Shown here in pieces: positions 25,669-49,587 of a DNA stretch of 64,000 nt. The DNA comes from Polytrichum commune (lineage: Eukaryota > Streptophyta > Polytrichopsida > Polytrichales > Polytrichaceae), in NCBI GenBank assembly GCA_950295325.1, contig OX485808.1, positions 20,232,527 through 20,296,526 on the forward strand. Direction: 5' to 3'. Numbering within the stretch: the stretch's first letter is position 1; each line of letters starts with the position of its first letter. The notes under the pieces were generated by a model that worked only from the letters and a program-made list of their open reading frames with translations, ran no database searches and was not told the DNA's origin. Position numbers and translations under genes: made by a program.

Positions 25669-25721
25669 CACTAGTAGAAAACATGGTTAAAAAAAACCGC
25701 AGTCGTTTTTCTATTGCGGTT
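25669..25721. repeat. 5' terminal inverted repeat end and hairpin, copy 1
   Basis: CACTAGTAGAAAA is followed by AACCGCA (25695-25701) and its perfect complement TGCGGTT (25715-25721), a 7-bp stem with a 13-nt loop. CACTA followed by GTAGAAAA is the usual end of plant CACTA elements. Confidence 0.85.
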
Positions 25722-26569
25722 CTTTTGACCACTATTTTAATAGTTTTTTTGGGGGGGCGATAATTACCAATATTGGGTCACTGTCATTCAAGGTTTTAAC
25801 TGTTTACACATTCATAGATCATTTCTCTTTATATTCTGTGTATATGCATTTGCGTGCAATTAATTTTTGGAAACTTAATGTCTTCACACATCCTTTACGT
25901 ACGTAAAATATATATATATGTCTGGGTTAGTTTAGGTACGTACGTATCAGCAAGTGTTTGGTGCCTTTTGCAAAGAGTAAACATTGATTCGGAGTTAATT
26001 TGAAATCACAGTCCCATGTCATTCCATGAGCTATATATATGACTTTCAGGAGATATGCAATTGCTTGCCAAGTCCGTATTATGTCAATACACAGGTATGT
26101 CTTCGATTGCCTCTGCAACAATTAATGCACACCTGGGGAGAACCGGCAGTTGGTTACAAATGGTCCGGATGAAGTGGAAATACGACCATTCGAAGTTGAA
26201 GACTGCAGAAAAGGGGCCTACCATGGAGTAGGAATTTATGAAATATACCCTATTTTTATGAAGGAAATGGCAAGTTTGTTAACACATAACCGGTCCGACT
26301 TGCAAACCCGCGGATCTCATCCAATCGTGCCCAATGCGCTCTTAGATCGATGTTCTTCAATTCCTACGCGTGTTTCAATCGACCAACAGTGCACACACTC
26401 CCTTTAATTGTGGGACGGGTTTGTCCTATATTGACTGCCACTCACACCGAAATGCTCCTACGTATTGGGTTCAGCCCTAGCTGCAATGACGATGGCTGTC
26501 CAGTGCCTGTTGGAAACATGTGGCATTTGGATGCAACTTGTAGTCAAAATACAGTTGCAGCCAACTTGC

Positions 26570-26683
26570 ACTGTCTTCTGAAAACGAGTGTCACTCGATT
26601 TCCACTGTCTTCTGAAAACGAGTGTCGAGTCACTCGATTTCCACTGGCACTGGAAATCGAGTGACACTCGATTTCCGTTGACA
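26570..26683. promoter_or_regulatory. Subterminal repeat cluster, candidate TnpA-type binding sites, copy 1
   Basis: Three inverted motifs are built on CGAGTG/CACTCG: 26585-26597, 26619-26636 and 26658-26670. Each is flanked by GAAAA or GGAAAT and ATTTCC, extending the symmetry. A direct repeat, CTGTCTTCTGAAAACGAGTG, occurs twice with a 34-bp period. CACTA elements carry repeated subterminal motifs bound by their TnpA-type protein. That role here is inferred. Confidence 0.5.
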
Positions 26684-27753
26684 CCCGCAATGCGTTGTGC
26701 CTCAAGCGGACTGAACCCAAAAACGATTGCGACATGCATTCAACCTACACTCGAATGCTACTTGCTCTTGTATTCAAATCATAGATTACAAATGGGACAG
26801 GTCAATGAGCAAGGGACACTGGAATTGAAAAAAATGGTCTGTACAATGGTTGCAATGATAACTACATTCCCATGAAAGAAAGTCGTGCACAAAATTACAC
26901 ACATACATGTCTATCAAGCGTCATAGTCTGCACACAAACTTCACATCATACATTTCAGCGATATGAATATTTTGGGCAACATACTAGAGTTTCATTGTTT
27001 GGCAACTCCAATGAAGCTCAGTAACATTATCCGCCATGCTCAGTTAATACTGCGTCCCACATCTCTCAAAGTCTCAATGCAACTACATTCAATGGTCCCA
27101 ATATGTTTGAACCTTTCTTCTCTGAAAAATGAACTACTGTGGATGACATGTTCCAACACGTACAAATTTGCTATTGAATCTATGGCCACATTTCGAACAT
27201 TGAGCAGAGAACAGGATTGGCGTTCCGGGTCCAGGATGCTGTAGCGCTTCAAAGCCGCTGCCACAGTCCATAGAGTTCCAGACTTGCCAATCTGCACAAA
27301 TAATTACACTTTCAGGATTTATGCTTTGTACACTAAACAACTCCACATTTAGTGACTGTCATAACAAGTAGATACAAGGCAAGAGTTTAGTGGAGCTTGT
27401 CATTTACTCTGCAAAGTATACAGCTCCAAGTCCAAGTATCAGAAGGAACCTTACACTAGACTCACTATAAATTGATGCAAATACTGCATGAATAGGATAA
27501 TTGCCATGTCATCTCCTTAACAAGTTAAAAATTACATCACATATTAATATCTATTTGAAGACAATTCAAACGAACAAAAAACGCCCACAATGCAAGCACG
27601 GATCATGTAAAAACAACTGGCACGAATAACGAGTCGAAATTTTACCTGGAGAGGAGGAGTTCATAGCACCCCAATCTGGAAAGGCCGGTTAGATGAACAC
27701 ATGCGTGTCTCTGTATATGAAGAATACAATGATTCGATTTCAAATTTATGGAG

Positions 27754-27811
27754 TCAGGTTGAATGTAGCTAGACATGAAACCCAAACATGGCATGCCTAC
27801 ATTCAACCTGA
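27754..27811. repeat. Perfect 15-bp hairpin inside the CACTA element, copy 1
   Basis: TCAGGTTGAATGTAG (27754-27768) and CTACATTCAACCTGA (27797-27811) are exact complements separated by 28 nt. It lies just 3' of the captured tRNA-synthetase exons. The same hairpin recurs at 49322-49379. Confidence 0.85.
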
Positions 27812-28019
27812 AACCATAAACTTGACCTCAAATCAAGTTTAGCAACCCCCAAGGACAACAGACCTCGGATCCGAGGCCTTCTGCAAAGTAGCCTATTTCG
27901 ATCCACAGTAAGTCAAGTTTGGAATGGTGATTGAGATGCACCCTCTTGACTTTCAAAGACATTCAAGCCTGAAACTGAGCCACATGAAAAGATGATTGCA
28001 AGGTCTTCTGAAAGCCTAC

Positions 28020-29294
28020 CTTGTGGGAGAAATTTGGCATGAATGGTTCAAAAAGTGTCGTCAACAAATGAACCGGTCCAACAGATGCCTTCAACACAAT
28101 TGCACAAGCAGGTGGATCTTCCTTGTACAACTTCCAGAATTTGCTGTCCTGTTCCCATGAACCATGATTGATATGACAGAAAGTTAGGATTTACAAACAT
28201 CGCCATGATGGAGCTCCTCAACATAGAATCAATCATACAAAGGTAGGACTTTCACGGCACAAATGGGTCCTGACAATTCTCCAAAACTTCTTTAGGTGCA
28301 GTGCCTGTAAATAAAGGTTGCCAAGACTGGAAGCGTTCATTGCTACTCTAAGCATGTCTTCAACTTCAATTTCTCCATAGCGTCAACATACTCAGTCACA
28401 ACCTTCTCAACTTCGGATCCGAAATTGGCTGTGAGTTCATGCTCTACAGGGTTGATAGCTTCGGTAGCCACTGATATATACCCACCTTCCCCTGTCAAAA
28501 AATCCCACAAAACCTTCATCTCATAATCATTTGTATATGATCATTTCATATATAATTTACAAGCAGAAACACTAGTCTCATAACACTTTCATAAACTAGC
28601 TAGAGAATACTTTCATAACTTTTGAATATGAGGTGGTGCAGACCTGAAGGTTTGGCCAGAAAAAACAAGGTCTGATGAACAAAGTTGCCCATATTCTTTA
28701 GCAACTCATTGTTTTGCTTGGCCTGAAGGTCTGCCCAGGTAAACAGAGTATCTGAAACCTGTAGTAAAGACATCATTAAAGGGTCCAAAAAAAAAAAAAT
28801 CAAAATAATAATGAATTTATTGGAATATTTTTTAAATGATCGTTGCCATACAAATGCACAACCCATAAAGGAACATTTTGTTCACACAAGCCTTTGTGAA
28901 CTTCAAGTTTGGATTAAAAAGGAATAGCAAGGAAATCCGTTTTAGACAATAATTGCTTCCACAGTTCTCAATTATGTTTATCCTTCATAACTGCAAGAAC
29001 GACCACAACATTCACACACAGCATGCAGAACATATTGGAAGAACAACATAGATGTACCCAACAGCTAAAAACTATATAAGAACTTCACAGATAGATTCAA
29101 GCAGTAGCTAGACACACTAGTTGATTAAGGATACACGAGGTTGCATTTTAGCCTTGCAAGTCTCTCAATAAGGATAAGATTAGTGTACCTTTGGCCGATT
29201 GACAAGAAGATAGTATCTCCATACTTCTACAGGAATATTTGTGGTTTTCACGTCATTACGAAAATCCCCCACACCCCTATTTTTTGAGAATTTT
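28020..29294 (-). pseudogene. Captured methionyl-tRNA synthetase fragment, copy 1
   Basis: Minus-strand exons separated by good GT-AG introns match the middle and anticodon-binding parts of a cytosolic-type methionyl-tRNA synthetase. Exon A (29189-29294) begins KFSKNRGVG, the KMSKS-type ATP motif with its last serine changed to asparagine, and continues IPVEVWRYYLLVNRPK. Exon B (28644-28758) reads VSDTLFTWADLQAK then LLKNMGNFVHQTLFFLAKPS. Exon C (28491 downward) reads GYISVATEAINPVEHEL then YVDAMEKLKL, followed by a frameshift near 28375 before RVAMNASSLGNLYLQ. Exon D (28020-28148) reads DSKFWKLYKEDPPACAIVLK and FEPFMPNFSHK. A possible further exon lies at about 27134-27292. The N-terminal catalytic half is absent, so it cannot encode a working enzyme. 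Retained introns show DNA-level capture rather than retroposition. Confidence 0.88.
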
Positions 29295-29649
29295 CTTGCA
29301 CAATTCAAGGATAGCTACATTTATGTAACATCACAAATATATGTTGTCAACAAAGTCGCACATGAAAGATCCAAACATCACTTGAAAGCAGTAGTCTTCA
29401 TCAGCTGAAGGTATTAGTTTATACTTGCTTTACATTCTGAAAGTCCGTGCTCTCCACAGAGGAGTAAAATGAGTCCATGCAATAAAATACATGAAGTCAT
29501 GCAAATCAGTGAACCCACACCGTAGTCCAACAGAAGCCAAGGGCAGCAGATCTGAACAATCTCCTACACGCTGAGCTCCGATAAACTGAGCAGCTGGAAC
29601 TCCTAGTCATCCGACTTTCAAATTTCAAGGTACAAGGAAGAGAACATAC

Positions 29650-30053
29650 CTGACTCATAGTTCAAGTATTATGTGACACTTATTGTTTTCATCAGGGTCC
29701 AAGGTTCTCCAGTACCCAGGAGTGTGCAGGGGAAGATCAACTGTGCAACAAGATTAAACAATGATTTAAAACAGATAGATTCATCATTCACCTACCTGAA
29801 CAAAGTTGAGGCAAGGCCCAATATTATGTCTCGCATCACAAAATATAAACATCTTAGAAGCAAGACCTCTTTGCCAAGTAATAGAAAGCTCTACATAAAA
29901 ACATCCTCAAATATGACAAGTGTAATCTTCCTTCAGTGTAAGGTAGACATGTACGTCCACAATCTGCCGTCCACAGTCCCATTCCCAGATGTCCCCAGAA
30001 CACTTCGAATCTTTGAGCTTTAATAGTTCGGAAATAGGAATCTCATCAACCAC
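29650..30053 (-). pseudogene. Coding-like exon remnants of unknown origin inside the CACTA element, copy 1
   Basis: Two minus-strand blocks follow clear acceptors. One (29907-30053, after TTTCAG) reads VVDEIPISELLKLKDSKC then GDIWEWDCGRQIVDVHVYL and ends at a TGA. The other (29655-29740, after TTGCACAG) reads DLPLHTPGYWRTLDPDENNK then CHIILEL and a TGA just before a CAG/GTATG donor. They look like real coding sequence but I do not recognise the family. They may be a second captured fragment or 3' exons of a lost third element gene. The frames do not join cleanly, so a pseudogene is favoured. Confidence 0.35.
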
Positions 30054-30325
30054 CTGAAATATTACATGACCACATGATTGACATTAGTAACCCACAATGT
30101 TATCACAATTGCCACATCAAAGATGACAAACCATTGCTGTGTCTGTAGAGACGATGTGCACAAGGGGTAAGTTCGATGCATTGCATTAACAGGAAACATC
30201 AAAATATCATGTTTGAGTTGCATTTATGCAATCAGAAATACTGGTGTCTACCGGAAAAATGCCGTCAGCGCCATTCGAGGTGTTGCAAAGCACATGACTG
30301 CCATGTCCGAATTCCAAGGTCCTAT

Positions 30326-33300
30326 CTAATTCCTTCTTGGCAACCTCCTCCGGTTGCCTCCCCTTCCCCTTCCCCTTCCCCTTCCCCTTCCCCTTCGTCC
30401 ATTGGCCCCTGCATGTTGGTGAATTTGATGTGGATCACCAGCCACTAGTGCATTCAGCCTGGCAATCTCCGCGGCTGGAACTGCCTCCCCTGCATTCACA
30501 GGGTTTGGCCTGAAATGCGCTGCGTTCATGTCCAACGGTAGTTGGAGGCCAATCAGATCCCCCGATATCCCCAATGTCTGTTCATCGTCGTTGTCCACCA
30601 CTCTCCGCGATCGCGGCTCCTTCTGGAGCACCACGCGCCACGCAGGATGCCTCCAATCCTCAATGAAGAACACCTTGCGCCATGTGCACAAATAGTCAAC
30701 AAAGGTATTGTATGGATTCACACAATATATGCACATCCTCCGATGCACCATACATTGGGGCACACTTCAACAGGGAGGAGCCACATTCCCACATGAACCC
30801 CAATCAGACTCACTACATTGTGATACCTGGCGGATTGTGGCCGGTAACACATACGGTTCTATGTCACGGGCAATCCGATCATTGAACCTGACAATCGTGA
30901 AGCCATACTGGTCTACCTTCGTGGATGACTGTGCCCCAGGAGCATTGCGAATCCATGAACCACGAAACACTACCCTCCTTTGCGCTGAGTATCGAACAAC
31001 AATAATCTCTTTCAAGACTCCTACCATACTCACACCTGCGCTTTGTCCCTCCTCTGCTCCAAATATGCTGGCGATTCCATAATCTTGTGTCACGAACCCT
31101 CGTTCATCTCCCTCGTTGTACACCCTGTAGTGGTTCCCATAGGCCCACATTTGCTGATAACTCTCAGCATCTCGAGAAGGGAGACTCGATAGTCGGAGCA
31201 AATCGATGTCAACATTGCGTGAACCATGTGTGTTGACCAACTGCGTGGTGTATGATGGCAACCAGTCCACAAAGTCAGGCAAGTCGTTCAAGAGGTCATT
31301 AGGATAAGCACGTTGTTGTCTTCGGCTAAGCCCTCTTAATGCAGCATCCCTCCTGAATGTTGCCCTTCCTGCCTCCAGTTGCTCTTTAAGGGCCTGGTAT
31401 TGTCTGGCAGATACAAAATAACTATACATTAGTGGGTGTGACAGCACCTGAACGCAAAGGCCATGGCTACATACAGACTAGGCGTGAATTTGATTATTCA
31501 TCAAGACATAATGCATATGGTTTACCTCCAAGGCTCCCTAGTTGCCTCTGAATTCCTAATAATCCAAGAATGGATTGCTCTCCGCTCCTCGTTGGTTAGT
31601 TCTCGGTTTAGGGCTTTTCCTTCTAGCAGTTCTCCACAATCACCCAACTCCTCCTCGTCATCCCAAATTCTTCGTCGTGTGAAGGGATAGAGCTTCAAGT
31701 ACTCGGTGCAAAATCCGAGTGCCTCATCATACAAGTAAGCATTCGCAATGGCACCCTCGGGGTGTGCCCGGTTCCGGATATATTTTTTTAAAACATTCAA
31801 GTGTCTCTCTACCGGATAGCACCAAGCATTGGCAATTGGGCCGCACAACTTCACCTGCCTAACAAGATGGATTGGCAAATGGACCATAATGTCAAAAAAA
31901 GAAGGAGGAAACCATACCTCCATTAAGCACATTGTTTCGGCTGCATAATGTTGTAAACGCTCTAACTCTGTCACAGCTATGACCTTTTTGCAGATCATTG
32001 TGAACAACCTTGCAAGCCGAATAATGGCCGATCGGGGCCCCCTGTCCATAAGATGCCTCAAACAAACAGGGAGTATAAATTGGAAAAAGATGTGGAAGTC
32101 ATGGGACTTCATGTTACCAATTCTATTCTGGAGTATGTGCTTCTGCATTGGCCCACAATAGCCCGTCGGTAGTGATATTCCAGCCAATTGCTCTAGAAAA
32201 TTTTTTTGTTCCTCTTTGGTCAGCACGTATGGTGCAGGAGGCTTGATGTAATTTCCACCAGGCACCGGCCCTCGACGAACCCACAAATGTTGCCGTATTC
32301 TCTCCTCCTCCATATCTCGACGCGAGGCTGCGGTGTCTTTCGCTCCAAATAGTAACTTCACTAAGCTGTCGCATATGTTGCGCTCAATGTGCATTACATC
32401 CAAGAGGTGCCTGATTGGAAGCTTCTGCGGCTACAAGCTGCAATAGTAAGCATATGTTGCAATGTGCATAATGGTCTCGTAAGTCACTAGGTGTTTTCAA
32501 CAACAAGCCACAACATGCTAGTGTCCAACATCATATATGCACATTTGGGACCACAACAACCTGCAAGCAAGTAGGCAATGCTTCATTGTCTGATATTCAT
32601 ATATACATATGTCAAATTACATATATTTCATTTGCAGTTGTAGATGAATGAGCAGGCTGGCAACAACAAACTGTCCATTTTGATAGAGTCAGGGTATTGT
32701 CTGCATTGCATTTATTCTTAATTCATTACAGACTCTGAAGTTAAACATTGCAGTGTGTCCAGCAAGGACCAGGAATATTCACAACATCCCGGTGATCATA
32801 TCATCTTCCTGGCCATGTAAGGTAGACATGAATTGACAACCAGAGATATTCAACCATGTCATTCCTTTCAATGAAAATTAGGAGAATAAATAGCAACAGG
32901 TTTCGCAATACTAACCCTCCAGTATGGTAACTGGTATAGCGCTGATACTCTCTTTACACCGTGCTCCTTGGCAGGAAATTCGTCGTCCTTCTCTGTGCCC
33001 CCTCCGTCAATGTAGGCCTCTGATTGACGGCCATACCGAATTGTTTGGTTTCCTGTTAGTGGTTCGGCCGCCGTTTCATGGTTTGCTTCACCGTCAAATG
33101 CTGCAGCTGCGCCCCGAAAATAATGGTCTCCTTGCAGATATCTTCTATGGCAGTTGCAGTACACATTTTTCCTCAGTATTTTGGACCTGCGAGATACTGT
33201 GTGGGGTCCGCATACAGGACAACCTTTGAACCCTTTTGTAGTTAGTCCAGAAATCAATCCATAGGCCGGAAAATCGTGCAATGTCCACATCAAAACGGCC

Positions 33301-35067
33301 CTCAGGTTGAAGTGGGACACTCCCAAATTAGCTCTAGCATCCCATGTAAGAACCCCCCTACGACTCCACAGTTGTTGCAACTCATCTACCAGAGGTTGTA
33401 CGAAGACATCAATATTTGAACCTGTTAGACTTAATTTAGTTGGAATCAGAAGACATAACATTACAAAGTATTTTTTGGTTACCAACCACGGAGGCAAGTT
33501 GTAGTTGAACACAATGACTGGAGTTAAGCTTTGGGTTGAGCGTTTCTCAGAATATGGGTTCATGCCGTCCAGGGCAAGTCCTAGATGGATATCCCGCGGA
33601 TCTCGACCGAACATATCATTGCCCGCTTCAGGTTCCAGTTCTGTGTTCACAAAATTCCACTGTGGAGAATCAGCAGTGTGTCTCATCTTTCCATCAACCG
33701 ACTTGTTAAAATAGTGCCATACATTTAACTTTGACAACTTCTTAGAGCTAAACATCCTTTGCAGCTGAGGGATAAGGGGAAAATGACGCAATATCAAAGT
33801 CGGTACCCTTGACCTCCCGCACATTCTGTACCTATCATGCTCACACACTGGACATTTCTCAACATCCTCTAAATCACCATTAAATAAACAACACCCATTA
33901 GGACAAGCATGTATCATGTTATATGCCAACCCAAGTCTCCGCAGAATTTTGCTCGCCTCATACTCCGTTTTCGGAAGACAATTTCCCGCGGGCAGAATAC
34001 TCATACTCAGGAGCATAAGTAGCTCATTCGTAAATGTGTTGGACACACCGTGTGTCTTACAACAATTCACTATGAGCAAGGTTGCGCATAGCATGGACAA
34101 GGTGCTGCCCTCATACAAGGGCAGTGTTGCGGCAATATCAAATTCGGGATTCGAACCCATTCGGTCCTCGGGAATTTGACCCAGCAGCTCTTCCAGGTCC
34201 TCCTCATCACTCTGTTCGTCGTCCGATGCATCCCCTGGCTCCCTCCTGGAGGAATCACTAGAGTTCTCCTCCGCGTCCCCATCTTCGGCCCCTAAATTGG
34301 CCGAACCCTCCTCTCCGCTGGAGCCTCCATCGACATTGCTTGTTCCATGTTGACGTGGGCATTGGCTGTGATCGTTACTGCAATTGGACTGCAGGGACCT
34401 TGTTTGAAACTCAGCAATGTATTCACCTTCTGACCGCACATTAATGTTGCTCACAATATCCGCATCTCCGAGTCCATCCTGCCGGTGCTGCATTGGGGAC
34501 CCCTCTGCAACGGCAGCTTCGGGGCAGGCGGCCACAGCCGCACGCATGTGTATGTTGTCCGCAAACGTGAAAGCATTCCTCACCATCATCCCAATTCCAA
34601 CGCCGTCGTCGAGAGCTATCTCAGCTATTGGCTCATTCAGGCCGAGAAATGCTCGAGCGTGTGAGCCAATGTGCTGATCCCACTCCTCGTCAGATGAGTC
34701 ATAGTCGTCACCCTAAATGTCAACATACACCAATATTAAAACACACATCGACAACAAAATGGTCACGTCAATAATAAAGTTTAAGTATTTCATGACCACT
34801 CCCTCAACTATGGTCGATGTGCGTAATTACCTGTGTACTACCTCTCAAGGCACCATGTCGGCCCCGATGCCTGAGGTGCCTTGCAACTGTGCTGGTCTTG
34901 TAGGGTCGTCTCCGCCCCCCACAAAGATTGCAAGGGCACCTGTACCTAGACAATGCATTCCTGTCAGCACGATCCTCGTCTCGCTGCTGCAACTTCAAAT
35001 CCCTTGCCTTGATGCGGAGTGGATGGTCTAGTGGAAGCCGAGCTACTGGTTCACCCTCCATGCTCAT
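30326..35067 (-). CDS. CACTA transposase (TNP2/TnpD type), copy 1
   Basis: This is the DDE-type transposase that cuts and inserts the element. Five exons join in phase by GT-AG sites: 34831-35067, 32916-34712, 31526-32424, 30827-31403 and 30326-30673, giving 1285 aa with no stops. The start ATG at 35067 follows an in-frame TGA. Domains: an N-terminal Cys/His motif (C44-P-C-x2-C, H64-x2-H67), an acidic linker, then the Transposase_21 region with HACPNGCCLF (about 347-356), ALDGMNPYSEK (D461), TLHDFPAYG (D559), GCPVCG, and LDVMHIERN across the exon 2/3 join (E692). A DUF4218-like part follows (MKSHDFHIFFQFILP) and then a DUF4216-like part (GVLKEIIVVRY, YGFTIVRFN). The tail is RG repeats encoded by a CCCCTT minisatellite. 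D461, D559 and E692 are my candidate catalytic residues. It appears intact. Confidence 0.9.
30357..30395. repeat. (CCCCTT)n minisatellite coding an RG-rich tail
   Basis: About six CCCCTT units on the plus strand encode the (GR)n run near the transposase C-terminus on the minus strand. Copy 2 has the same number of units (51925-51963). Confidence 0.85.
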
Positions 35068-38000
35068 GCCTCAATCTGCATCATGTTTTAGCACCATGTT
35101 ATTCTTTAATGAACCCAGTCTTGCATAACAGAAGAACGTCCCAGCTACGGCAGGCGACACATAACTTTGGGCAGTCCAACATTCATAGTCTTGTAGACTT
35201 ATTGCACCATTACAATATGAGATCAATGTGAAGCAACTCACCTCGCACCTTGGCTAATTTGCTATCAACCACCTTAAAAGGGTGCAAATCATTCACTGAA
35301 GGGGACACCGATATTGCTAGTCATACACACGGTTTTCATCCACATCAACTCACGCCGGGGCACCAAGTAAAAATGGCGCTAAACCACTCCAGCATCCACA
35401 CTACTGTCTTGTTAGCTGTGTCGTTGACCATATACACAAGTTATTCACTCAGGCAATGGACCTTAGATATACTGCCAGCAACAGACACTCCGAAGAATCA
35501 TTAGGGCAAGTAGTGTTGTCAATGTCTGCCTGCAACAGGGGTTTCATGTAAGCATCCATACTTACATGGTCCTCGCAGATCTTCTGGTACACGCAATCTT
35601 ACCTCAACGGTTCCCCTGAGGACTCGATCGTCAGCCGGTGAAGCCCGGTTCCCTGCATCCTCCGCAGATAAAGACCCCATGCCTTCTACATACTGCTACT
35701 TGACACAAATACGAATCAGTACCTCCCATGAAAGTGAGGTGATCTTCACAGAATATGGGGACATTGCTTGACATAATTCAGGAGGTAAGATGGAAAGCCC
35801 ATCAAAGTCCTATTCATGTTGTTGCGCGCATTACGAAGGCACTTTATATGATCATGGTGCTCAATCAGTGGCTGCCATTCTCGACACAACCTGTTCTCCC
35901 ATACCCAACATCATCACCAGACTGGGTGAACCCTCTAACTTTTCGTACATTTCTCAGCTGAGTTGAGAATGACACACATTCTGACACACATCATACGCTC
36001 TTACACAGTGAACTAAGAATACGTTGTATGTTTAAACCATTAGACTTCTAACAATCCTCCAGGTTGAAGATGGTGTAGCCATTCTGGCAGGCAACTCAAC
36101 CGCAAACATCTACATCCTTGCAGCATGACAACCATGATAACTATATATTACTGAATCTGCCCATCTGTAACTGATGTTACACTCCGACTCTGCATTGCCG
36201 AAACAAGTCTGGCTACAGATCGAACTGCATAGGCAGTGTGTGGCATAACGGAACACGCAGGCACGACAATGTTGAAGAGGACCCAGTGGGTCAATCCATA
36301 GTGCTGAACCAAGCCATTGTTGCGTGGTCAACATTGGTGGAGGCAGGTTTCATATATTTTGGGTGAAAACATTAAGAATCGTATCGGCAAAGCACACTAG
36401 CCAAAAATGGGGCTTGGAAACTTACCTTTCGGATCGCAGACTCCGCTGTCAGATTGCATCTGACAACAGAATGCCCTTGTAATTACGTTCTGCTGCGACG
36501 GCGATCTCCTCCAATAGGTGTGACACTCCAAGTGCATACCCACACACAACTGGGTCAGTCGTCACGATAAAAACATACTGAAGAATGCTGACCAAGCTAA
36601 GGATGCAAGATGCCAATAATGACATAATGACATAATTGCTACACAGTTTGCCCGGAAATCCAGTTATAGAAGTTAAGAAAATGTCACAAAATAGATAACA
36701 ACGCCAAACATTCAAGCTACTCTGAGACAAGGGAGGACAGCAGCCACGCGTCCCTCGTCCGCCTCTGAGAGCGTGTGCAATTCAAGTCCCAATCACGGAG
36801 ACGTTCATTCTGCAATGAGGCACAAGATCAGTCATAGTACTGCAAGTTTTATGATCGGCACACGGCGATGACTTGATCTACTCGACACAATAACTACGAC
36901 ATGGCATGAACAAGGCTGATCCACGCCGTCATACAATCACCCACACACAGAAACATTGGGGCGGATCCACCACAAATCGCAGAGTGAATGGATCTAAACA
37001 ACACATCACGGCTACACAGAACCTGACATGTAGAACGCCAAGCTAGTCAGCAATGGCGCAAATTTCCTCGGGTGAAAGTGCGACGATGCCGTCATGTAGA
37101 CGGACAATAGAGCTTTGTAACACAGCTCTGGACCCGGGAGCCCAAACCGTCGCAGATATGCACACACAAGGTGAAGGACACATGAACTCTTCACAAAAGA
37201 AAGAGATAACCTCGGCAAGTTGCAACGTCGCAGACCCCGCAAAAGGCAGTCCTCGCCAAGATAGCCTCGGTTGTATCATTCACGCTTTGCGGCATGACAC
37301 AAAGGAACCTCACACAATGCGATCTACAATGGCGCAACGCGTCGTGAACGCCGATGCGTTACGCGGGGTATGTGTCCTCCCCTAAACCAGCAGAATGCAA
37401 CACACATCCAGCACCAAGATCGCTGAGTTGCCGTCTACTGCAATACGAGCTTGCCGAAACCTCCAAAAACCATGACAAAGCTGCGTACATGCAAGAGCAG
37501 ATGGGTAGAACGAACGGGGATGACAAGAATGGCGGAGTTCAAGCAGGGTGGAGCCTACCTGTGTAGAGCCCGCCGCCGAAAATACACAACCAGACTGCCC
37601 GATTAATTTTGGCCGTTGATGGCTCCCTGCCCGAGGCAATGTGCTGCCCGAGGCAATCTTGACCGTCCATCAGGGGGCGACGATGTGGATGGGAAAAGTT
37701 ATTCACACGTGTTGAGGATGACGTGTCTCCCACCACGTCATCGGTGGGGGCTGGAGTTAACCCCATGATTGCCATGGCCATGCTGCCAGGCCGCTGTGCG
37801 TACGTGGGGATTTGATCCAGCCCCCGGGTGATGATGGTTGAAGATCTTCGACACGATTCCCCTTCGCTCGAGGCTGGCAGTTGGCCCACCCTCATCAGGC
37901 ACACTTTGTTGCAGACTCTTCCCATTTCGACTTTCCCCCGGAACGGATCTCTTTCGCTTCAATTTCCCGCTGCTTGGCAATTGAATTTCCCTCGAGGTCC

Positions 38001-40257
38001 CTCTGAGTCGGTTTGGTTCTGCCTCGACTTGCATACATCCTGTCAATCACCTGCATTCGTTAGGAGTCTCTGTTAGGTGCATCGTCTCCTCGTCTCCGCG
38101 AATCTTTCTTTTCTCTCAGACTCACTACATCGTCTCCTCCTCGCCTTTCTCACATGAGCAGACTCTATCCTCAACATCAGCGTGCATTGCCTCTCGGTCT
38201 TTGTGTGCCTCCGCCTTGCTACCCTACACTGTACAAGGAGTGGAGTGTTGCAGTGATCCATGGTCACTTTCGCACTTGCCTCCCGTTGGCCAATCCAATC
38301 ACCTATCTGTGCGCAGCCTGTGGTTTCCATCTCATGCTGGCATAGGTGTGCAACATGTGCAGTTTTCATACACGCAAGTTTCCCTTCGTTCTTTGTCGCT
38401 CTGACCTGCCTATAGCATGCCGGATGCGGACCCTAAAGCATCGCCATGTTTTTTGCGCCAGGGGTCTTAGTCAAGCAACCTTCTTTTGGTGTTGAACCCT
38501 TCGCACGCCCCGTCGCCTTTGTCTGGGGGCTCGACTATCACTTGTGCGTCAGAGTGCACCAGTTTGTCTGCCTGTGCCACACAACCCCACACTGTGCACC
38601 CTGATGTGTTTGACCTGTGTTGGGTCGGTGTGCAAACCCAACATGTTGATGCTGCCAAGATCCCCCGCCAATGTTGTTGTTTTGAGCTACCTTTAACACG
38701 CAGGATGTGGCTGTGCCATTTTCCGTCATCAGTTTTTTCAATTTTGGTCTGCTTTCAGTTTGTTGGTGATTGTTTAGGCAACATTTGATACATATGTCCA
38801 TGTTAAAACTAAACCCTGCTCAAGTTGCCTCCTGTGAGTACGGTCTTGTTGTATCCGGTATGTGGCTATTTTGTGAAGACTCTTAGTCAGATCTGTTTTG
38901 AGTGGTGTATTGGCCCAGCATGTTTGCCTATTTCCCCTAGAATCAAATGTGTGGACTATGGTGATGGGCTATTACACCACGGAGAGATCATCTGTTACAG
39001 TTTTCCTGTCATCGTTCACTTCAAAATGACCATATCGTCATATTTTTCAGTCTTGGTCTGCGGCAAGTTTGTTGGTGAGTGTTTAGGCAGCATTTGATAC
39101 ATATGTCCATATTAATCTTCCTTGCTCAAGTTGCCTCCTGTGAGTATTCTCTTGTTGTTTCCGGTATGTGGGCATTGTTTGATCACTCCCAGACAGATAT
39201 GTTTTGAGTGGTGTATGGCAAAGTGTGTTACGACTATTTCCTCTATCCTCAAATGTATGTCATATGGGGATTGGCTATTACATCACGCAGAGTTCCCTCT
39301 GTAACAGTTTTCCTGTCATCGTGCATTTTGAAATGACCATATCAATGGTCCCCTCCTGGATGAGGGAACCACTGCGCAATTGTGCCGTCGACTCGCTGTA
39401 GTGTCGAAGTGGTCGTATTCGGGTGAGATGGCAATGGAAAAGTAGTCCGGTGCTAACTATTTTTTGGCATGCTTGTGACCACAATTATTTCTTAATCCGG
39501 GGTGACATTGTTTAGATGCGTGGTTGAGAGATAAACTTATGTGCTGGTATTCTCTATTAAAGACACTATGCTTAGAACAGTATTTTGCCTTTGGCACCAC
39601 TGCAGCGTCTTGAACGTGCACACAGGAATGTTGAAAACAAACCAGAAGAGGCTGTAAGTAATCCGATTTATGTAGCGATACTTTGCTCACCAATAGTTAG
39701 CAATGTCGATGTGGATCCCGTATGGCCATGTCCTGTGACATGTAGTTGTATGCTCCTTGGAACTACACACTCCCTGGGATTTGTCTTCCTTCCAATTCGT
39801 GGTCATTGCTTATGCCGTGTTCAAGTTGGACAACGGCAATAGTGTATTGTGTTTGATGCCGGTTTAAGGGTACACGCTGTGTCGTATATTTCTCCATGCT
39901 TGAGTATTCCGTGTTGCTGGATGTTAGATTCTTCTCTTTTGATTCTCTATGTGACACCCTTTTTAGGACTCTTCACAAAATTTCTCAACTTTTTCTAGCT
40001 TGCAGGCGGTGTACTTTTGCAGATCAGAGATCACTCTCCCATTGGTTCATGATTATGGAGTAGCAGGCCTCTTACATACACATTTCACATCAGCTTATCC
40101 AAGATCAGCAGGTTCTTTTCACTTTTCCATCATAAACCCATTTCCAGCCTCCATTCAACCTTGATCCGTATATTGATGGTCTGTAGTGTGTAGTGGTCTC
40201 AAATCAACCTCCATTTTTTATTAGGTTTCTCTATGGCAGAATTCAGTGATCGAGGCC
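35068..40257. promoter_or_regulatory. Divergent intergenic interval of the CACTA element, copy 1
   Basis: This separates the two divergent element genes. No conserved protein was recognised. The 36.7-38.6 kb part is notably CpG-rich (for example AACGCCGATGCGTTACGCGG near 37350) and probably holds both promoters. Several minus-strand donor-like sites (near 35240, 35600, 36425, 37555) suggest spliced untranslated leader exons of the transposase transcript. These are inferences from sequence character. Confidence 0.45.
38734..39344. repeat. ~309-bp tandem duplication inside the CACTA element, copy 1
   Basis: Two diverged units, 38734-39042 and 39043-39344, share in order TTGGTCTGC, GTTTGTTGGTGA, TTTAGGCA, ATTTGATACATATGTCCAT, GCTCAAGTTGCCTCCTGTGA, CCGGTATGTGG, TGTTTTGAGTGGTGTAT, GGCTATTACA and TTTTCCTGTCATCGT. 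They lie about 1-1.5 kb upstream of the accessory gene start, so a leader or regulatory role is possible. Confidence 0.75.
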
Positions 40258-43200
40258 ATGCCAGTTGCAATGCAAGATATGGCCAGGTATTGATGAAGTT
40301 GGTTGCAATGCCTCCGTGATAGTGCACAGATTCCACTCTGTAACTTTGGGCAGACACAATCTACGACCACAATTACGTGATCGCCCAACACTCAGAAGTC
40401 CTTCGCATAGTAGGGCCCCGATATTTTTCCCAGTTCTATATTGGACAATTATATGAATACTATGGCCGACCAATACAGTCAGGGGACCCTCACGGAATAT
40501 GACGTCGTGAGGAGCACCCAGTTTGTGGACGACTTGTCCCGACCGGTATGTGTTTCTCGCACTCTGCATCCTCAGTTGGCCAACACTAATGCATGGCCTT
40601 GTGGCAACATGGAAAACGTGCCTGTAAGTAATTCTGATTTATGCACATTCACATTGAATTGCACTCTTTTGCAACGTCGTTGAAGTAGTTAGCTGTCATT
40701 TCCACCACAAATAGGTCTTGCATTGACACTCATGTGTTCCCCCTTTGTATATACAGGTATTTAGAGGTGCATCAGCGCAACCACAGAGGATCGACCAATC
40801 ACAGGTCCGACCCCTCCCCTCCTCACCAGTGCAGTCGCCCTGAGATCATACCGATGTCTCTTTATTGTCCTTCTCCCGTGCATTATGAATTGGATGTAAT
40901 GCAGTTCTCTCCTGGCATTGCCAATGTAACATATTGGATGCCCTGCATATAGTTGTCTAGGTTCCGTGCTCATGGTTGGTATGCCCCAGACGAAGATAAA
41001 CTTGCCTACTCACAAATCATTGTATGCAGATATTCAGCATGCCTTATTCAGCGCCCTATCACCAACAACAGAACACAATTCCGTGGCAATCTGTCCAGCC
41101 GGTTTATGGAAGTATGGGTGGTCTACCCCAATCCATGTACAATCCGTATATTGGTACACCAGTTACTCCATCCAATGCATACAACAATCACGTGTCATAT
41201 CCTGCACAGCCACGAGACACGCAGTTCGATGGGACTACCTCTGGCCGCGCATTGTTGCCGCAGCAGAATCGGCCACAAGGTGCACCATTTGGCTCCCCAC
41301 CCAGTCATGCGGCAGCCGCAGAATACTACACATCAGGACAGGTGCAAAATCCACCACATGAAAGTACGCAACCTCGCACACGGACACAGTGTATGCCTGT
41401 GGAAGCTGCGGAGGGCCAGACAGTTGCTGGACTCCTAACTGGAATGGGACAAGGCAGTTGTGGGCAACAAAGAGAAACCCATACAACCAGAGATACGAGT
41501 GGGGGTCGTGTGGAGTCTAGCAAGGTTTTGGGAGCAGAGAGTGCACGGCCAGCGCCATCAACATTGGGGCGGCAATCTGTTCACACAGTTGCCAGTGCCC
41601 ATACATCATCGGAAGGAGGTACCTTGCGCGACCGGCGTCACTCCCTGAAGGAGCCATCTTTGGTGATAAATACAAACAATAGCCCCACATTGTTAAGTCC
41701 AACATCCAGTAAGTCATCCCCACCCTCCACGTTGTCACAGAGAAAGCAACTTAGAGTAGAAGAGAAGTCATATCTAAAAGAAGTGAAAAGATCCATTGCA
41801 GAAGGTAGAGTGCCACAAGTCCGGCTCGAACAAAACCACAATGGTGCCATAGTCAAATACAAAGCGCAATTCTTGAACGCACTCAAACTAGCTGCACTTG
41901 CAATTGTTCCATGCGCCGATATAGACATAAAGAATCCATGCACCATGCAAGAAATCATGAGAGAAGTGAAGCGACAGTTCATAATAGAGAAGCCACTCCC
42001 GGACGGCATGGTAGAGGGGTATCTCCAACGTCTATACAAGAGAAATAGATCATTGTATCATCGTCAATGGCTCCTACACGGTGATAGTAGCAGGCCTGAT
42101 GATTGTTCATCAGCGGCATGGTTGCAATTGGTAGATTACTGGAAGTCATCGGAAGGGAGCAGAGAATGCGAGAGAAACAAGGCAAATGCATCAACAAAGA
42201 AAGGCACGGGAGTACGTTATCATATCCTCTCCTTGTACTATGAAAATTTGTAATGAGGATTCAGCTGTTCCTAGTTCAGGAATTGTGAGGTCCACCGTTC
42301 TTTGGTGGCTGCAAGGATTTGTCTCCCCTCACACCTCCTTGGGGTGTGCAATTCTTGACACCTGTCCTAACTCATCACTTTGTTTGGGTGTATGTAGGCA
42401 AAACGCCATAGTACCTCCAGAGATAGGAGATCCACAACCGAAAGTGAAGGTGGCGCTCGTTGCAGCTCCTATGCGCAGGAGAAAGCACATCCGGTAATAT
42501 CATGAACCCCTAAATGGCCACTTTATTGTGTTTGCATGAATTTTCCAACACAGGAGTCCCACTGATTGACGGCAGGAGTTCAGGAAGTATAACACTTGTA
42601 TTTTCCCCCTAAACCAGACTGCACACGTAGAATCTCTAACCCATGGGTGTGCTGCCCATGTTATGAACCTGCAGAAAGAAAATCCCTTACGGGGTACGGG
42701 ACTGCCGCGTCTATCGCACACATCGTCGTCATCGAAAATTTCTTCTTCGGACGGTCTTGTGGAGCGACCGCCCATGCTCGACATTAGCAACAAACTCCAT
42801 GCATTGGTAGATGAGTTTGTATCTAATTTGTCGTCAGAATGTGACTCTCTAGCTAACATTGTCTGTGTTGAAGCCCATAAGTATGTCGCACACGACAGTG
42901 CATTAACTCAGACACAGACTCAGAGGCCGAGCAATCGCACGACGTCAGAGGTGTTGAAGGGGTTGACCAGGCCCTCCACCACTCCCTTAACCACATTGCA
43001 GAATAGAGAAGGCAAGTCACATGTGCAACCGGGCAAACCAAACTTCCAGGCAGGCAACAAAGGAAATAGAGAGGAGGACAGTGACTTGCGATACATGAAG
43101 AACACGAAGGCGAAAAGTGCAGCTCCGCAGGAGTTGGACGACACAGTTCCCTTTAGAGTTCTGGAAGTGGATATTGAGGTCCAGACGGCGAAGGATGTCC

Positions 43201-44544
43201 CACATCGTGGCGGCCGCACAAATCACACGGCGGCGAGAGGGAGACCCAACCAACCTGTTGAGCTATTGTCATCCGACTCAACTTCGGATGAAAGCCCTCG
43301 TGCACGCGCCAAACAATCTGTGAGAAAGCCAGTCACCCAATTTGCCACAAAGGGAAGAGACTCAACCTCTCAAAGGAGCTCAAGAAGGAAGGAGACTAGG
43401 AGCCCCTCCTGGTCTCCAGAGAGTTCACATTTGATGAACTATTCATATGAGGAGGATACGGCAGGACTTGGTGGGACAAGTCCTCATGGTGAAACGACGT
43501 TCCCAAAGTTGAGGTGGCCTGCGGACTTAGGCGATGGCTACCTTGATGGAGGTTCTGGTCAGAAAAGTGACGACAATGATGTACATAGCAAAACAATGAA
43601 CGGGCCCAAACATGAAAGGTTAAAATCCGATGTGGACATCAGCCTGGAAGAGGGTGATGAATCTAATGGAGAAGATACTGGACGCGATGCAATCCAAACA
43701 GAATCAGATGGCGAAGAGCTGCCTGTGCTACCCAAGGTTCCAGTGAAGCGGAAGGTGGCGAATCCACCCAAAGTCTCCGAGAGAAGGACCCAAAGAGGCA
43801 ATGCAAAAAGTACAAGTCCCTCGACAAAGAGACAGAGAACTCCGCAGATGGATGCATCTGTCATCACTCAACTTTCATTTGCCAGGCGGCCTCCCAATAG
43901 TGTGAGTGTTCCACCTTCTGGTTGTGACTGTAATGCATAATAGAATTGTCGTCTTCAAAGTTGGCTGAAGTTGACCCTGTAATTAAACGAATGGCAGTGA
44001 CTTGATATAATTGTGGGTATCGATATTTGTGTCGCAGAGTCCAATCAGAGTCAGAGTAAAGGTTTGGGTTTTGCATCCAAAGTTCGACGGGAAGGTTGTG
44101 GCGGAGGCCTACGCCGGAATCAACCACAAGTCTAGGTGCCTAAACGACGAGCAGGATTTATGCAAGAAAGGAGAACAAATGATTAGTGTAATAAGAGTGT
44201 TCTACAAAGACACTCCGGTGATGTTCAAGAAGGAAGGGCGCTACCCAAAGCACATCGCCTTCCTGGACCAAGCAGAGGGACTGCCCAACAGTCCCATATT
44301 GTGGGGCGTATGCTACATAATGCAGATTCCGACTATGGAAGAAATAACTCGGTTGATGGGTAAGCTCACCTCAGCTGTTTGTGGCAGGGCATCCTCCAAT
44401 GCGGTTGGAGAGGGGCCGAAAGGGAAGAGAACGAACTCACCATCCACCACGACAGAATCTTTGGAAGCTGCCAAGCCGCGGGATTCTTCGCAATTGAGGA
44501 AGAAGACCGAGCAGAACAGACCCCCCAACAAGAAGGGTACCTAA
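40258..44544 (+). CDS. CACTA accessory protein (TnpA / Ptta-En-Spm-like), copy 1
   Basis: The TnpA-type protein binds subterminal repeats and assists transposition. Seven exons join in phase by GT-AG sites: 40258-40286, 40434-40623, 40757-40804, 41030-42211, 42398-42493, 42576-43901 and 44038-44544, giving 1125 aa. The start ATG at 40258 is chosen because only this frame meets the exon 2 acceptor in phase. The N-terminal third is low-complexity (Q, P, S rich). The conserved part is AAWLQLVDYWKSSEG then ECERNKANAS and, after a splice, AKRHSTSRDRR, resembling the W..LV..W and NR/HT block of the plant En/Spm transposase family (about residues 455-500). A long acidic and basic linker follows. The C-terminus has VRVKVWVLHPKFDGKVVAEA and YPKHIAFLDQAEG. 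Exon 1 is the least certain. The gene appears intact. Confidence 0.72.
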
Positions 44545-46269
44545 ATGCCAAACAAAGTGAATGGTAAGAGGAAGGTCCCACCCAATGTCAATTGCAATGT
44601 TTGAGTCTTGTAAGTAGTGTTATTTGCAGTAACAGACCCTCACGCGAAGCACAAGGAGTTGACGGATTTGTCGCCGACAAATTGTAGTGGAACTGATCCA
44701 ATTCAGCCCTGTATTTGTTGACCCTCAACCCCAATATGCATAATAATTTCGGTTGTGCAGCTGTGCCCCCTATGTGTAGTAGGAGGTGGAGATTTATTAA
44801 TTAAGGTGCAGGAAAGCTGTGCGGCCAAATTCAGCATATAAATGTCAACAACACGTGATATGTTTACAGGCGACGAGTTCCCCCCACCCCCTCCCCACCA
44901 TTCATGGATTTTGTTTATTGATAATGTCACTTTTATTACATCACATATTTTATGTTGGATGATCCCTTGAATGAGTTCATGAGGACACTTGTTTGGATAT
45001 GAAATGTTGTTACTTGCAAGGTTTAGCCTCACGCCAGCCATGCACGGTATTTGTGAGAACACCCAGAACTTTGAAGAATAGTATGTAGTGCAGGTGCAGA
45101 CTATTGTTTATCAACGCATTGTAATTGAGGTGTGCCGCACAGTAAGCTGCTCGGCATTCCTTGGACACACATGCAAGCTGATATGAATGTGTTGAAAGGA
45201 CAGGTTGTATTTCACACCTACTCGCAGCGACATATTTAGAGGCATGACTCCGAATTTGTCCGGGAATTTTAACGTCCAGGTGGTTTCTTGCAGTACGGGG
45301 ACGGTGTCGCAATCTGTTTATGAGTCGGTTACCTGGAATTCGTGCTGGATGCAGACATTGATGACTGCCCACAGCGAAATTGGACTGCCCTCTGGAGAAG
45401 AGCCCCAGCATATGGAGCACAGCAACCCGGTGGAACACATAATGGAAATTGTGGAATCTTGATTGACAAAGTTGGTGGGAGCGATTGGAATGAGCCTACA
45501 TTTGGTCACCGTGGAAGGAGACCATCGGACGACGCTGTAACTAGGAGATATGTATTTTAGTATGGACATATGTAGGAATTTCCGAGTTCCATGAACTGCA
45601 TAATTAGATGATGTCAATGCCACAGTTTACATATGGACATGTTTTTGTAGGATGAAGCAAGAAGTTTGCCTTGGTCTTATGTGGAGTGATATGTGGCTCT
45701 GATACTCACAAATGACCACAAAATTGTAGACTTGATGGCAAGGAGGACATATATGATTTCAAAACATTCTGGCGTTGAATTGGCAATTTTGAATGATACC
45801 CAATTTATGTGGCGAGAGTTCCTTGCTCGTCCTCCATTATATGTGTTGGTTTTCGTGGAAAGCAACGTATATGCTGCATTTTTTTCACTTTACAATGGTG
45901 TAGTTACTGGCATAATGCCCTGCATTCTAATGAGCTAAGAATTGTTGTTATCGGAGTGTTGCATACATCTTGTACGCTCCGAGTATGAAGCAATCCATGG
46001 GCATGCATGAAATGTCTGTGAACATTGGATTGATACAATATTATGTACAGCATTAAGTGCATTGATCCATTGCCGTATGCATGGGTTTCTCGTTTTTAGT
46101 CTGCAACTTCATTTTGAGCAGGTTCCATGTGATGTGTCGGTGTCAGAATCACATTTCACACGACACATAGGCAGTAAAACCAACTTTGTACACATCCAAA
46201 CTCAATTTGCTGAGGTTCCGTTGCCCTTCATTCTACTGAAAGACTAGCCACTCAAAGGTGTTCTTCTCA
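44545..46269. other. Region 3' of the accessory gene, copy 1
   Basis: This region holds an open plus-strand block at about 45325-45560 that reads DIDDCPQRNWTALWRRAPAY and HNGNCGILIDKVGGSDWN. It looks coding but is not assignable. No CACTA 3' terminus or copy of the subterminal CGAGTG palindromes was found. How much belongs to the element is unknown, because copy 2 ends before this point. Confidence 0.35.
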
Positions 46270-46453
46270 CTATTGTTCTTTAACCATGTGCATCCGATGT
46301 GGAATAAATTCATGTTTGAATCTCTGCTTAGTCGTGACCTCAGACCTATGGCACCCTGAACCTGTGCGTTGATGGCTTATTCGTCGGGGCCTCCATTTTT
46401 GGAGGTGTCTCCTTAATGTTGCCCACCATTTAGCATCGTGAGTTGAGCTCCAG
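46270..46453 (-). pseudogene. Possible Ty3/gypsy gag fragment
   Basis: On the minus strand the frame reads THDAKWWATLRRHLQKW and later QRFKHEFIPHRMHMVKEQ, then a stop. This fits the gypsy gag pattern of A-x-WW followed by W/x-F-x2-EF-x-P and V-KEQ. It is cut off by the assembly gap. It is opposite in strand to the pol fragment beyond the gap, so the two are not simply one element. Confidence 0.4.
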
Positions 46454-46653
46454 NNNNNNNNNNNNNNNNNNNNNNNNNNNNNNNNNNNNNNNNNNNNNNN
46501 NNNNNNNNNNNNNNNNNNNNNNNNNNNNNNNNNNNNNNNNNNNNNNNNNNNNNNNNNNNNNNNNNNNNNNNNNNNNNNNNNNNNNNNNNNNNNNNNNNNN
46601 NNNNNNNNNNNNNNNNNNNNNNNNNNNNNNNNNNNNNNNNNNNNNNNNNNNNN
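46454..46653. other. Assembly gap of 200 N
   Basis: A run of exactly 200 unknown bases, a typical fixed-size scaffold gap. The order, distance and orientation of the two sides are not guaranteed. ORFs reaching across it are meaningless. Confidence 1.
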
Positions 46654-47236: not shown

Positions 47237-47289
47237 CACTAGTAGAAAACATGGTTAAAAAAAACCGCAGTCGTTTTTCTATTGCGGTT
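47237..47289. repeat. 5' terminal inverted repeat end and hairpin, copy 2
   Basis: Same end and AACCGCA/TGCGGTT stem (47263-47269 and 47283-47289) as copy 1. Confidence 0.85.
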
Positions 47290-48137
47290 CTTTTGACCAC
47301 TATTTTAATAGTTTTTTTGGGGGGGCGATAATTACCAATATTGGGTCACTGTCATTCAAGGTTTTAACTGTTTACACATTCATAGATCATTTCTCTTTAT
47401 ATTCTGTGTATATGCATTTGCGTGCAATTAATTTTTGGAAACTTAATGTCTTCACACATCCTTTACGTACGTAAAATATATATATATGTCTGGGTTAGTT
47501 TAGGTACGTACGTATCAGCAAGTGTTTGGTGCCTTTTGCAAAGAGTAAACATTGATTCGGAGTTAATTTGAAATCACAGTCCCATGTCATTCCATGAGCT
47601 ATATATATGACTTTCAGGAGATATGCAATTGCTTGCCAAGTCCGTATTATGTCAATACACAGGTATGTCTTCGATTGCCTCTGCAACAATTAATGCACAC
47701 CTGGGGAGAACCGGCAGTTGGTTACAAATGGTCCGGATGAAGTGGAAATACGACCATTCGAAGTTGAAGACTGCAGAAAAGGGGCCTACCATGGAGTAGG
47801 AATTTATGAAATATACCCTATTTTTATGAAGGAAATGGCAAGTTTGTTAACACATAACCGGTCCGACTTGCAAACCCGCGGATCTCATCCAATCGTGCCC
47901 AATGCGCTCTTAGATCGATGTTCTTCAATTCCTACGCGTGTTTCAATCGACCAACAGTGCACACACTCCCTTTAATTGTGGGACGGGTTTGTCCTATATT
48001 GACTGCCACTCACACCGAAATGCTCCTACGTATTGGGTTCAGCCCTAGCTGCAATGACGATGGCTGTCCAGTGCCTGTTGGAAACATGTGGCATTTGGAT
48101 GCAACTTGTAGTCAAAATACAGTTGCAGCCAACTTGC

Positions 48138-48251
48138 ACTGTCTTCTGAAAACGAGTGTCACTCGATTTCCACTGTCTTCTGAAAACGAGTGTCGAGTCA
48201 CTCGATTTCCACTGGCACTGGAAATCGAGTGACACTCGATTTCCGTTGACA
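48138..48251. promoter_or_regulatory. Subterminal repeat cluster, copy 2
   Basis: The same three CGAGTG/CACTCG palindromic motifs as in copy 1, at 48153-48165, 48187-48204 and 48226-48238. Confidence 0.5.
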
Positions 48252-49321
48252 CCCGCAATGCGTTGTGCCTCAAGCGGACTGAACCCAAAAACGATTGCGA
48301 CATGCATTCAACCTACACTCGAATGCTACTTGCTCTTGTATTCAAATCATAGATTACAAATGGGACAGGTCAATGAGCAAGGGACACTGGAATTGAAAAA
48401 AATGGTCTGTACAATGGTTGCAATGATAACTACATTCCCATGAAAGAAAGTCGTGCACAAAATTACACACATACATGTCTATCAAGCGTCATAGTCTGCA
48501 CACAAACTTCACATCATACATTTCAGCGATATGAATATTTTGGGCAACATACTAGAGTTTCATTGTTTGGCAACTCCAATGAAGCTCAGTAACATTATCC
48601 GCCATGCTCAGTTAATACTGCGTCCCACATCTCTCAAAGTCTCAATGCAACTACATTCAATGGTCCCAATATGTTTGAACCTTTCTTCTCTGAAAAATGA
48701 ACTACTGTGGATGACATGTTCCAACACGTACAAATTTGCTATTGAATCTATGGCCACATTTCGAACATTGAGCAGAGAACAGGATTGGCGTTCCGGGTCC
48801 AGGATGCTGTAGCGCTTCAAAGCCGCTGCCACAGTCCATAGAGTTCCAGACTTGCCAATCTGCACAAATAATTACACTTTCAGGATTTATGCTTTGTACA
48901 CTAAACAACTCCACATTTAGTGACTGTCATAACAAGTAGATACAAGGCAAGAGTTTAGTGGAGCTTGTCATTTACTCTGCAAAGTATACAGCTCCAAGTC
49001 CAAGTATCAGAAGGAACCTTACACTAGACTCACTATAAATTGATGCAAATACTGCATGAATAGGATAATTGCCATGTCATCTCCTTAACAAGTTAAAAAT
49101 TACATCACATATTAATATCTATTTGAAGACAATTCAAACGAACAAAAAACGCCCACAATGCAAGCACGGATCATGTAAAAACAACTGGCACGAATAACGA
49201 GTCGAAATTTTACCTGGAGAGGAGGAGTTCATAGCACCCCAATCTGGAAAGGCCGGTTAGATGAACACATGCGTGTCTCTGTATATGAAGAATACAATGA
49301 TTCGATTTCAAATTTATGGAG

Positions 49322-49379
49322 TCAGGTTGAATGTAGCTAGACATGAAACCCAAACATGGCATGCCTACATTCAACCTGA
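49322..49379. repeat. Perfect 15-bp hairpin, copy 2
   Basis: Identical to the hairpin at 27754-27811, with a 28-nt loop. Confidence 0.85.
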
Positions 49380-49587
49380 AACCATAAACTTGACCTCAAA
49401 TCAAGTTTAGCAACCCCCAAGGACAACAGACCTCGGATCCGAGGCCTTCTGCAAAGTAGCCTATTTCGATCCACAGTAAGTCAAGTTTGGAATGGTGATT
49501 GAGATGCACCCTCTTGACTTTCAAAGACATTCAAGCCTGAAACTGAGCCACATGAAAAGATGATTGCAAGGTCTTCTGAAAGCCTAC

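Follow-up and report, generated by a model that had tools for sequence, protein, structure and literature searches.

A piece of a methionyl-tRNA synthetase (MetRS) gene was very probably copied as DNA into an ancestor of a transposase-encoding CACTA element of Polytrichum commune and has since been carried as an unselected passenger. The piece lies in a stretch of 64,000 nucleotides (here referred to as the window), and the preliminary description had already proposed, from the letters of the window, an intron-containing MetRS piece captured by a multicopy CACTA element. This claim is upheld by the match to a parental gene, by the retained introns and by the location of every copy within the element. 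The case gives a datable record of how a large CACTA element that encodes a transposase captured gene fragments repeatedly, with four sources located in the same genome. Relatives that lack the insert fix its boundaries, and divergence separates the capture from the arm exchange and from the spread.

In alignment with the parental gene (BLAST pieces of the window against the parent), window 27901-29922, minus strand, is a gene piece that starts in parent intron 7, ends in intron 12 and holds five exons on the same strand. Exon 8 (29650-29740) has an in-frame stop (GAA to TAA), and exon 9 (29189-29295) reads KFSKN for KFSKS and has its acceptor changed from CAG to CAA. Exon 10 (28644-28758) is followed by exon 11 (28305-28491), with a 1-nt deletion and a donor changed from GT to GC, and by exon 12 (28020-28148). 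The four inner introns and parts of the two outer ones are still present. Four exons with correct GT-AG introns had been described in 28020-29294. That interval does hold essentially exons 12 to 9, but the homology is wider and exon 8 was missed; the GT-AG statement holds for six of the eight inner splice signals and fails for the other two, the exon 9 acceptor and the exon 11 donor. The KFSKN signature (KFSKS in the parent) and the single frameshifted exon, exon 11, were described correctly. Because the introns are retained (K2P 0.14), DNA and not mRNA was copied, and a processed, RNA-derived copy is ruled out.

We searched the genome's own DNA with window 28020-29294 and obtained 13 match rows, which represent 11 copies and one parental locus. 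Each of the 11 non-parental copies is 100% identical over all 1,275 bases, and two are inside the window, at 28020 and 49588; the parental locus gave two rows at C4:15586142-15588171, with 84% and 96% identity (C1 to C7 denote contigs). The parent is an intact gene at C4:15582995-15590115 with 15 exons, GT-AG introns throughout and an open frame of 803 aa, whose protein contains tRNA-synt_1g (E 7.7e-152), Anticodon_3 and tRNA_bind domains. With 11 perfect copies over 1,275 bp, a chance resemblance is excluded. The multicopy state had also been claimed, and either the lack of a MetRS match or an occurrence outside CACTA elements was to count against the proposal. In fact, the match is present, and the element encloses all 11 copies found, each equally far from its left end, on five large contigs (C2, C3, C5, C6, C7). 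The suggested comparison with the introns of a same-genome parent led to the gene on C4 and an intron K2P of 0.1395. A protein search of the genome found no other close MetRS locus and one weak match at C6:16105390 (41%, 46 residues), which may be an organellar enzyme. Intron 9 of the parent has a stretch of 729 bp (locus positions 3707-4435) without counterpart in the captured copy, perhaps a later insertion into the host gene. Annotators should beware of the 11 MetRS-like loci found here, all of them passenger copies in decay.

Two copies of the element were found in the window. Copy 1 (25669-46453) begins with CACTAGTAGAAAAC and loses its right end in a 200-base N gap (46454-46653). Copy 2 (47237-64000) is cut by the window end, its right end lying at C6:20301229, 21,467 bp from its left end, and it is flanked by a 3-bp target-site duplication (CAT/CAT). 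The two copies are 100% identical over 16,764 bp, and a complete copy of 21,467 bp at C6:27406841-27428307 differs from copy 1 at 2 of 20,785 positions. The terminal inverted repeats begin with CACTA and match at 68 of 70 bases (2 mismatches), and their pattern occurs at 114 places in the genome, versus 0 for a reversed control. Many pairs of CACTA ends in this genome list are about 300 bp apart (e.g. C1:52159743 and C1:52160076) and form a MITE-like group of short derivatives of the same family.

The frames of the element can be divided into two sets. On the minus strand are the transposase core with Transposase_21 (32868-34589, E 2.4e-61) and parts with DUF4218 (31522-32403, E 5.4e-38) and DUF4216 (30767-31447, 21.8 bits, below the curated cut-off of 30.6). 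Beside them are a frame of 145 aa with an R/G-rich end (30326-30763), assigned by position and without Pfam match, and a weak Transpos_assoc match (34804-35070, 17.7 bits, below the cut-off of 27.7). On the plus strand is a second element gene, whose first frame (41024-42253), extended from stop to stop (41000-42253), has a weak Transposase_24 match of 13.7 bits against a cut-off of 28.7, and which has a further frame at 42663-43940. The element thus carries the tnp2 transposase (Transposase_21) with DUF4218 and, below threshold, DUF4216 that is characteristic of CACTA (En/Spm) elements. Among the best 40 of 42 candidates, the loci matching window 42250-46450 at 70-78% include several CACTA relatives. 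Within the same 40, 288 bp of the second gene (44025-44312) are 85% identical to C2:66961258, with a further piece 1 kb away; this may be one more captured piece, or the element's gene may have a relative in the host.

Compared with two relatives, R4 (C4:51255175; three frames) and R6 (C6:32759530; two frames), the transposase frames contain no stops and give omega of 0.05-0.19, calculated, like dS, on the first aligned stretch of each frame. They are under purifying selection, and together with the transposase domains these values mean that the element probably encodes its own transposase. The MetRS piece had been placed between the 5' end of the CACTA element and its transposase. It does lie between the left end at 25669 and the transposase, but the transposase reads leftwards, and the piece, oriented like it, follows downstream at a distance of about 0.4 kb from the transposase frames.

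Moreover, beyond what the preliminary description had recognised, the element carries pieces of at least three other host genes, and host DNA was therefore taken up repeatedly. First, a 110-bp exon piece (29946-30055, minus strand), 80% identical to C2:5732697-5732806, a locus that also encodes a PG_binding_1 domain, lies 23 bp beyond the MetRS piece in the same slot. Its absence from the relatives is read from the R6/R4 alignment, and its genome search, with 13 of 13 candidates scored, missed R6 even where R6 is homologous and therefore does not bear on absence. Second, a piece of the exocyst gene SEC6 (35561-36170, minus strand) aligns over 612 bp at 79% with C7:10944928-10945531, which lies 2.8 kb upstream of the single Sec6-domain match found in the genome and shares its strand. 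The exons within this piece are presumptive. Third, a piece of an RRP44/DIS3-type gene with an RNB domain (39872-40426, plus strand) aligns over 557 bp at 80% with C6:4447619-4448172. The frame at that source gives an RNB match (E 3.9e-9) and also matches RRP44 chains, the best with E 9.4e-13. K2P to the source over all sites is 0.243 for SEC6, 0.220 for the RRP44-type piece and 0.233 for the 110-bp piece. Apart from the source locus and copies of this element, nothing matches the SEC6 and RRP44-type stretches, though CACTA relatives match beside them (32 of 32 and 24 of 24 candidates scored). Since the element's end motif is absent from the source stretches read, transfer from host to element is the likely direction. 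Two further matches lie near these pieces. The 111 bp beside the SEC6 piece (35451-35561) are 82% identical to C6:4419953 and 77% to C5:11823594, which is a CACTA relative. A 306-bp tandem repeat in two copies includes window 39091-39228, which is 83% identical to C1:6966905-6967041; we take the frame beside the latter, which has no Pfam match, to resemble the C-terminus of phosphoenolpyruvate carboxykinase.

We then compared the MetRS piece with its parent site by site. The counts for introns and exons used parent-locus positions 2912-5691, except 3707-4435 (the insertion that the fragment lacks) and 4720-4800 (low-complexity, AT-rich sequence). The introns differ at 166 of 1,314 sites (p 0.126, K2P 0.1395) and the exons at 52 of 629; divergence over all sites is 0.12. 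After one codon with a gap was dropped, 31 nonsynonymous changes were observed versus 33.4 expected for a neutral fragment and frozen parent amino acids, and the synonymous p of 0.138 is near the intron p. At least about half of the fragment's divergence therefore arose with no constraint detectable, and on the simplest reading all of it did. The neutral fit holds better for the exon sum than exon by exon, because exon 11 is more divergent (27 of 187 sites, versus 15 of 313 in exons 8-10). A working second MetRS was rejected as a candidate, the piece combining a stop, a frameshift, two damaged splice signals, the KFSKN signature, 5 of 15 exons and a nearly neutral substitution pattern.

Sequence analysis of the MetRS piece indicates no function for element or host. 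It is unlikely that the fragment works, either as spliced 3' exons of transposase transcripts or as a source of small RNAs, which would target MetRS or protect the element from silencing (epigenetic conflict or camouflage). Given its orientation and its short distance from the transposase frames, read-through from the transposase gene could bring the piece into transcripts, and captured exons are reported to be spliced in soybean Tgm-Express1 (PMC1947982). In the parent mRNA, 149 of 2,392 21-nt windows match the fragment perfectly, with longest runs of 68, 67 and 63 nt, which permits small-RNA crosstalk with MetRS, an interference that the preliminary description had called conceivable. The SEC6 and RRP44-type pieces are carried as well, and a camouflage idea is discussed in PMC8978399. 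Against such a role stand the nearly neutral decay and the damaged splice signals, as well as the scarcity of perfect genomic 21-mers for the older sources (4/584 for SEC6, 9/534 for the RRP44-type gene and 2/90 for the PG_binding_1 gene, compared with 238/2,780 for MetRS). Nor is there an excess of C-to-T type changes in the fragment introns, where 42 changes from C/G in the parent to T/A in the fragment face 56 in reverse, and where 26 cytosines are in CpG versus 14 in the parent introns. We considered a deamination mark of methylation separately; the exons do show 23 such changes versus 3 in reverse, but with the intron counts no general mark exists. A more specific conjecture has in our judgement a still slimmer chance: the element has stacked pieces of core genes (MetRS, exocyst SEC6, exosome RRP44-type), its perfect matches to MetRS would make silencing it by small RNAs costly to the host, and this shield would have aided the recent spread. 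The element nevertheless offers a natural test of whether core-gene fragments change how a transposon is silenced.

The boundaries of the insert were set by CACTA relatives. The left arm (25669-27897) is common to another CACTA group, and among the best 40 of 839 candidates seven loci lose homology to it at element position E2229 (window 27897) and an eighth does so at E2224. In R6, homology with the element resumes exactly at E4387, that is, window 30055. No match to the MetRS parent was found in the 4.9 kb read of R6 or the 9.9 kb read of R4, and the MetRS part of the element is unmatched in the 9.9 kb read of each of R3, R4 and R7. Over the lengths read, four relatives thus lack the MetRS piece. 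The left junction is ambiguous by 3-8 bp, and at the right 23 bp between the MetRS piece and the 110-bp piece have no assignment. The corresponding slot of R4 (L029:2080-4200) gave 25 matches, mostly CACTA relatives or short repeats, in which no host gene was recognised. The last 170 bp of the left arm (27727-27893) belong to a dispersed repeat, of which at least 20 other copies are 93-95% identical; it contains a 39-nt inverted repeat and ends at the MetRS junction. In R7, element positions 2314-4268 comprise about 2 kb without counterpart in the near-identical R4, mostly inverted in R3.

The left arm has K2P of 0.031-0.041 to R4, R7 and R3, based on E1-143, 640-890 and 1020-2229 with the tandem part dropped. 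This is much lower than the intron divergence of the MetRS piece, and a recent capture from a diverged donor, such as a lost paralogue or a related species, would account for it with no arm exchange, the 12-14% divergence then predating the capture. We regard this explanation as improbable, slightly more so than a working fragment. Two working genes would spare nonsynonymous sites, whereas the number found is close to that expected under decay after capture. The Poisson range of 21-44 limits the share before capture to at most 37-52%, depending on the constraint on the parent, and leaves at least about half of the divergence after capture, above the 0.03-0.04 of the arm. No second MetRS gene of this kind was found in the genome. 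Arm exchange is also evident independently: transposase dS is 1.0-1.24, near saturation, to R4 (about 0.5 to R6), while arm K2P to the same R4 is about 0.03, and the arm was therefore exchanged or converted after the MetRS capture. With similar rates in element and host gene, the divergences show the left arm to be younger than the capture.

Returning to capture from the host's own gene followed by decay, we propose the following history. The lineage of the element would have split from that of R6 and then taken up the SEC6, RRP44-type and PG_binding_1-gene pieces; later, MetRS intron 7 to intron 12 would have been added beside the PG_binding_1-gene piece. The left arm would then have been exchanged or gene-converted with another CACTA group, and a recent spread would have brought the element to at least 11 copies. 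If rates at the sources were similar, the SEC6 and RRP44-type pieces (0.24 and 0.22) look older than the MetRS piece (0.12 over all sites, 0.14 in introns), and by the same dating, which assumes similar rates in element and host gene, the MetRS capture appears to have long preceded the recent spread. We infer the uptake step and the direction and order of the older captures. Uptake most likely went through aberrant repair or a fusion of neighbouring insertions of related elements, as proposed for Pack-CACTA. The published proposals (PMC8903248, PMC13317346) are aberrant repair, or the joint excision of adjacent copies, whose ends become fused together with the intervening DNA. Same-orientation neighbours exist here, namely the two window copies and the pair C6:229443 and C6:247503, both pairs being touched by assembly doubts.

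Several known systems resemble this element. Pack-TYPE elements, a label that the preliminary description had applied, are non-autonomous by the published definition (PMC8903248). Captured host coding DNA between terminal inverted repeats is present here (MetRS, SEC6, RRP44-type and PG_binding_1 gene), but the element encodes a transposase, with Transposase_21, DUF4218 and sub-cut-off DUF4216 frames under purifying selection, and is therefore not Pack-TYPE in the strict non-autonomous sense. With the Pack-CACTA elements of Arabidopsis, rice and maize (PMC8903248) it shares the CACTA ends, the target duplication, coding DNA captured from the host at several loci and neighbouring same-orientation copies, and it differs in its constrained transposase frames and its 21.5 kb. 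Tgm-Express1 likewise carries host pieces as exons with introns, five there and at least four here; it is 5.7 kb long (PMC1947982), and its captured exons were shown to be spliced into host transcripts, a use that is hypothetical here. The Chenopodium CACTA elements with Neprosin and AP2 fragments (PMC8978399) also encode a transposase and carry captured host fragments, but these lie upstream of the coding sequence and AP2 spans 80 bp, while here 2.0 kb of MetRS lie downstream of the transposase. Soybean Tgmt*, a putative autonomous CACTA element of 20.5 kb, is similar in size and in having a transposase and a second product; unlike here, the accessible portion of PMC2613891 mentions no captured host gene fragment. 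Multi-fragment CACTA elements (PMC1947982) and transposase-encoding CACTA elements with captures, together with the camouflage idea (PMC8978399), are thus already in print, and what is new is this instance and its layered history. In the literature searched, which covers few subscription papers, we found no published MetRS capture by a CACTA element or another transposon and, judged by title, no capture of a tRNA synthetase by a Pack-MULE; among the matches listed for CACTA and exocyst, none looked related.

The copy number and identity are provisional and may be overstated by the assembly, because the flanking 3-mers disagree at five of six copies and N gaps occur. The right end was found at 21,467 bp in 6 of the 10 copies tested; among these six, the 3-bp flanks agree at window copy 2 alone and are mismatched even at the complete copy (C6:27406841). 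When the outermost ends are paired, a pairing chosen after the 3-mers had been seen, C2:41407371 (GTT), C7:5513684 (ACA), C6:247503 (AAG) and C2:5112473 (CAT) match as well. Some unmatched flanks fit the flanks of other element copies. We read the mismatched flanks as mis-joins across near-identical 21-kb repeats, real rearrangement being also possible. The N gaps and mismatched flanks do signal assembly trouble in these repeats, yet an independent MetRS pseudogene beside a transposon, or an assembly artefact, is very improbable when the element holds 11 of 11 copies, with one common offset and on five large contigs, and the junctions are bounded by homology to relatives without the MetRS piece. 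Eight loci, two of them the window copies, have 0 mismatches over 4,275 bp. Window copy 2 and the copy at C2:5112473 have identical flanks (300/300 on the left and 103/103 on the right). Between the N gap and copy 2 there are 583 bp that we take to be of a Ty3-type retrotransposon, and the last 300 bp before copy 2 are those identical to the left flank of the C2:5112473 copy.
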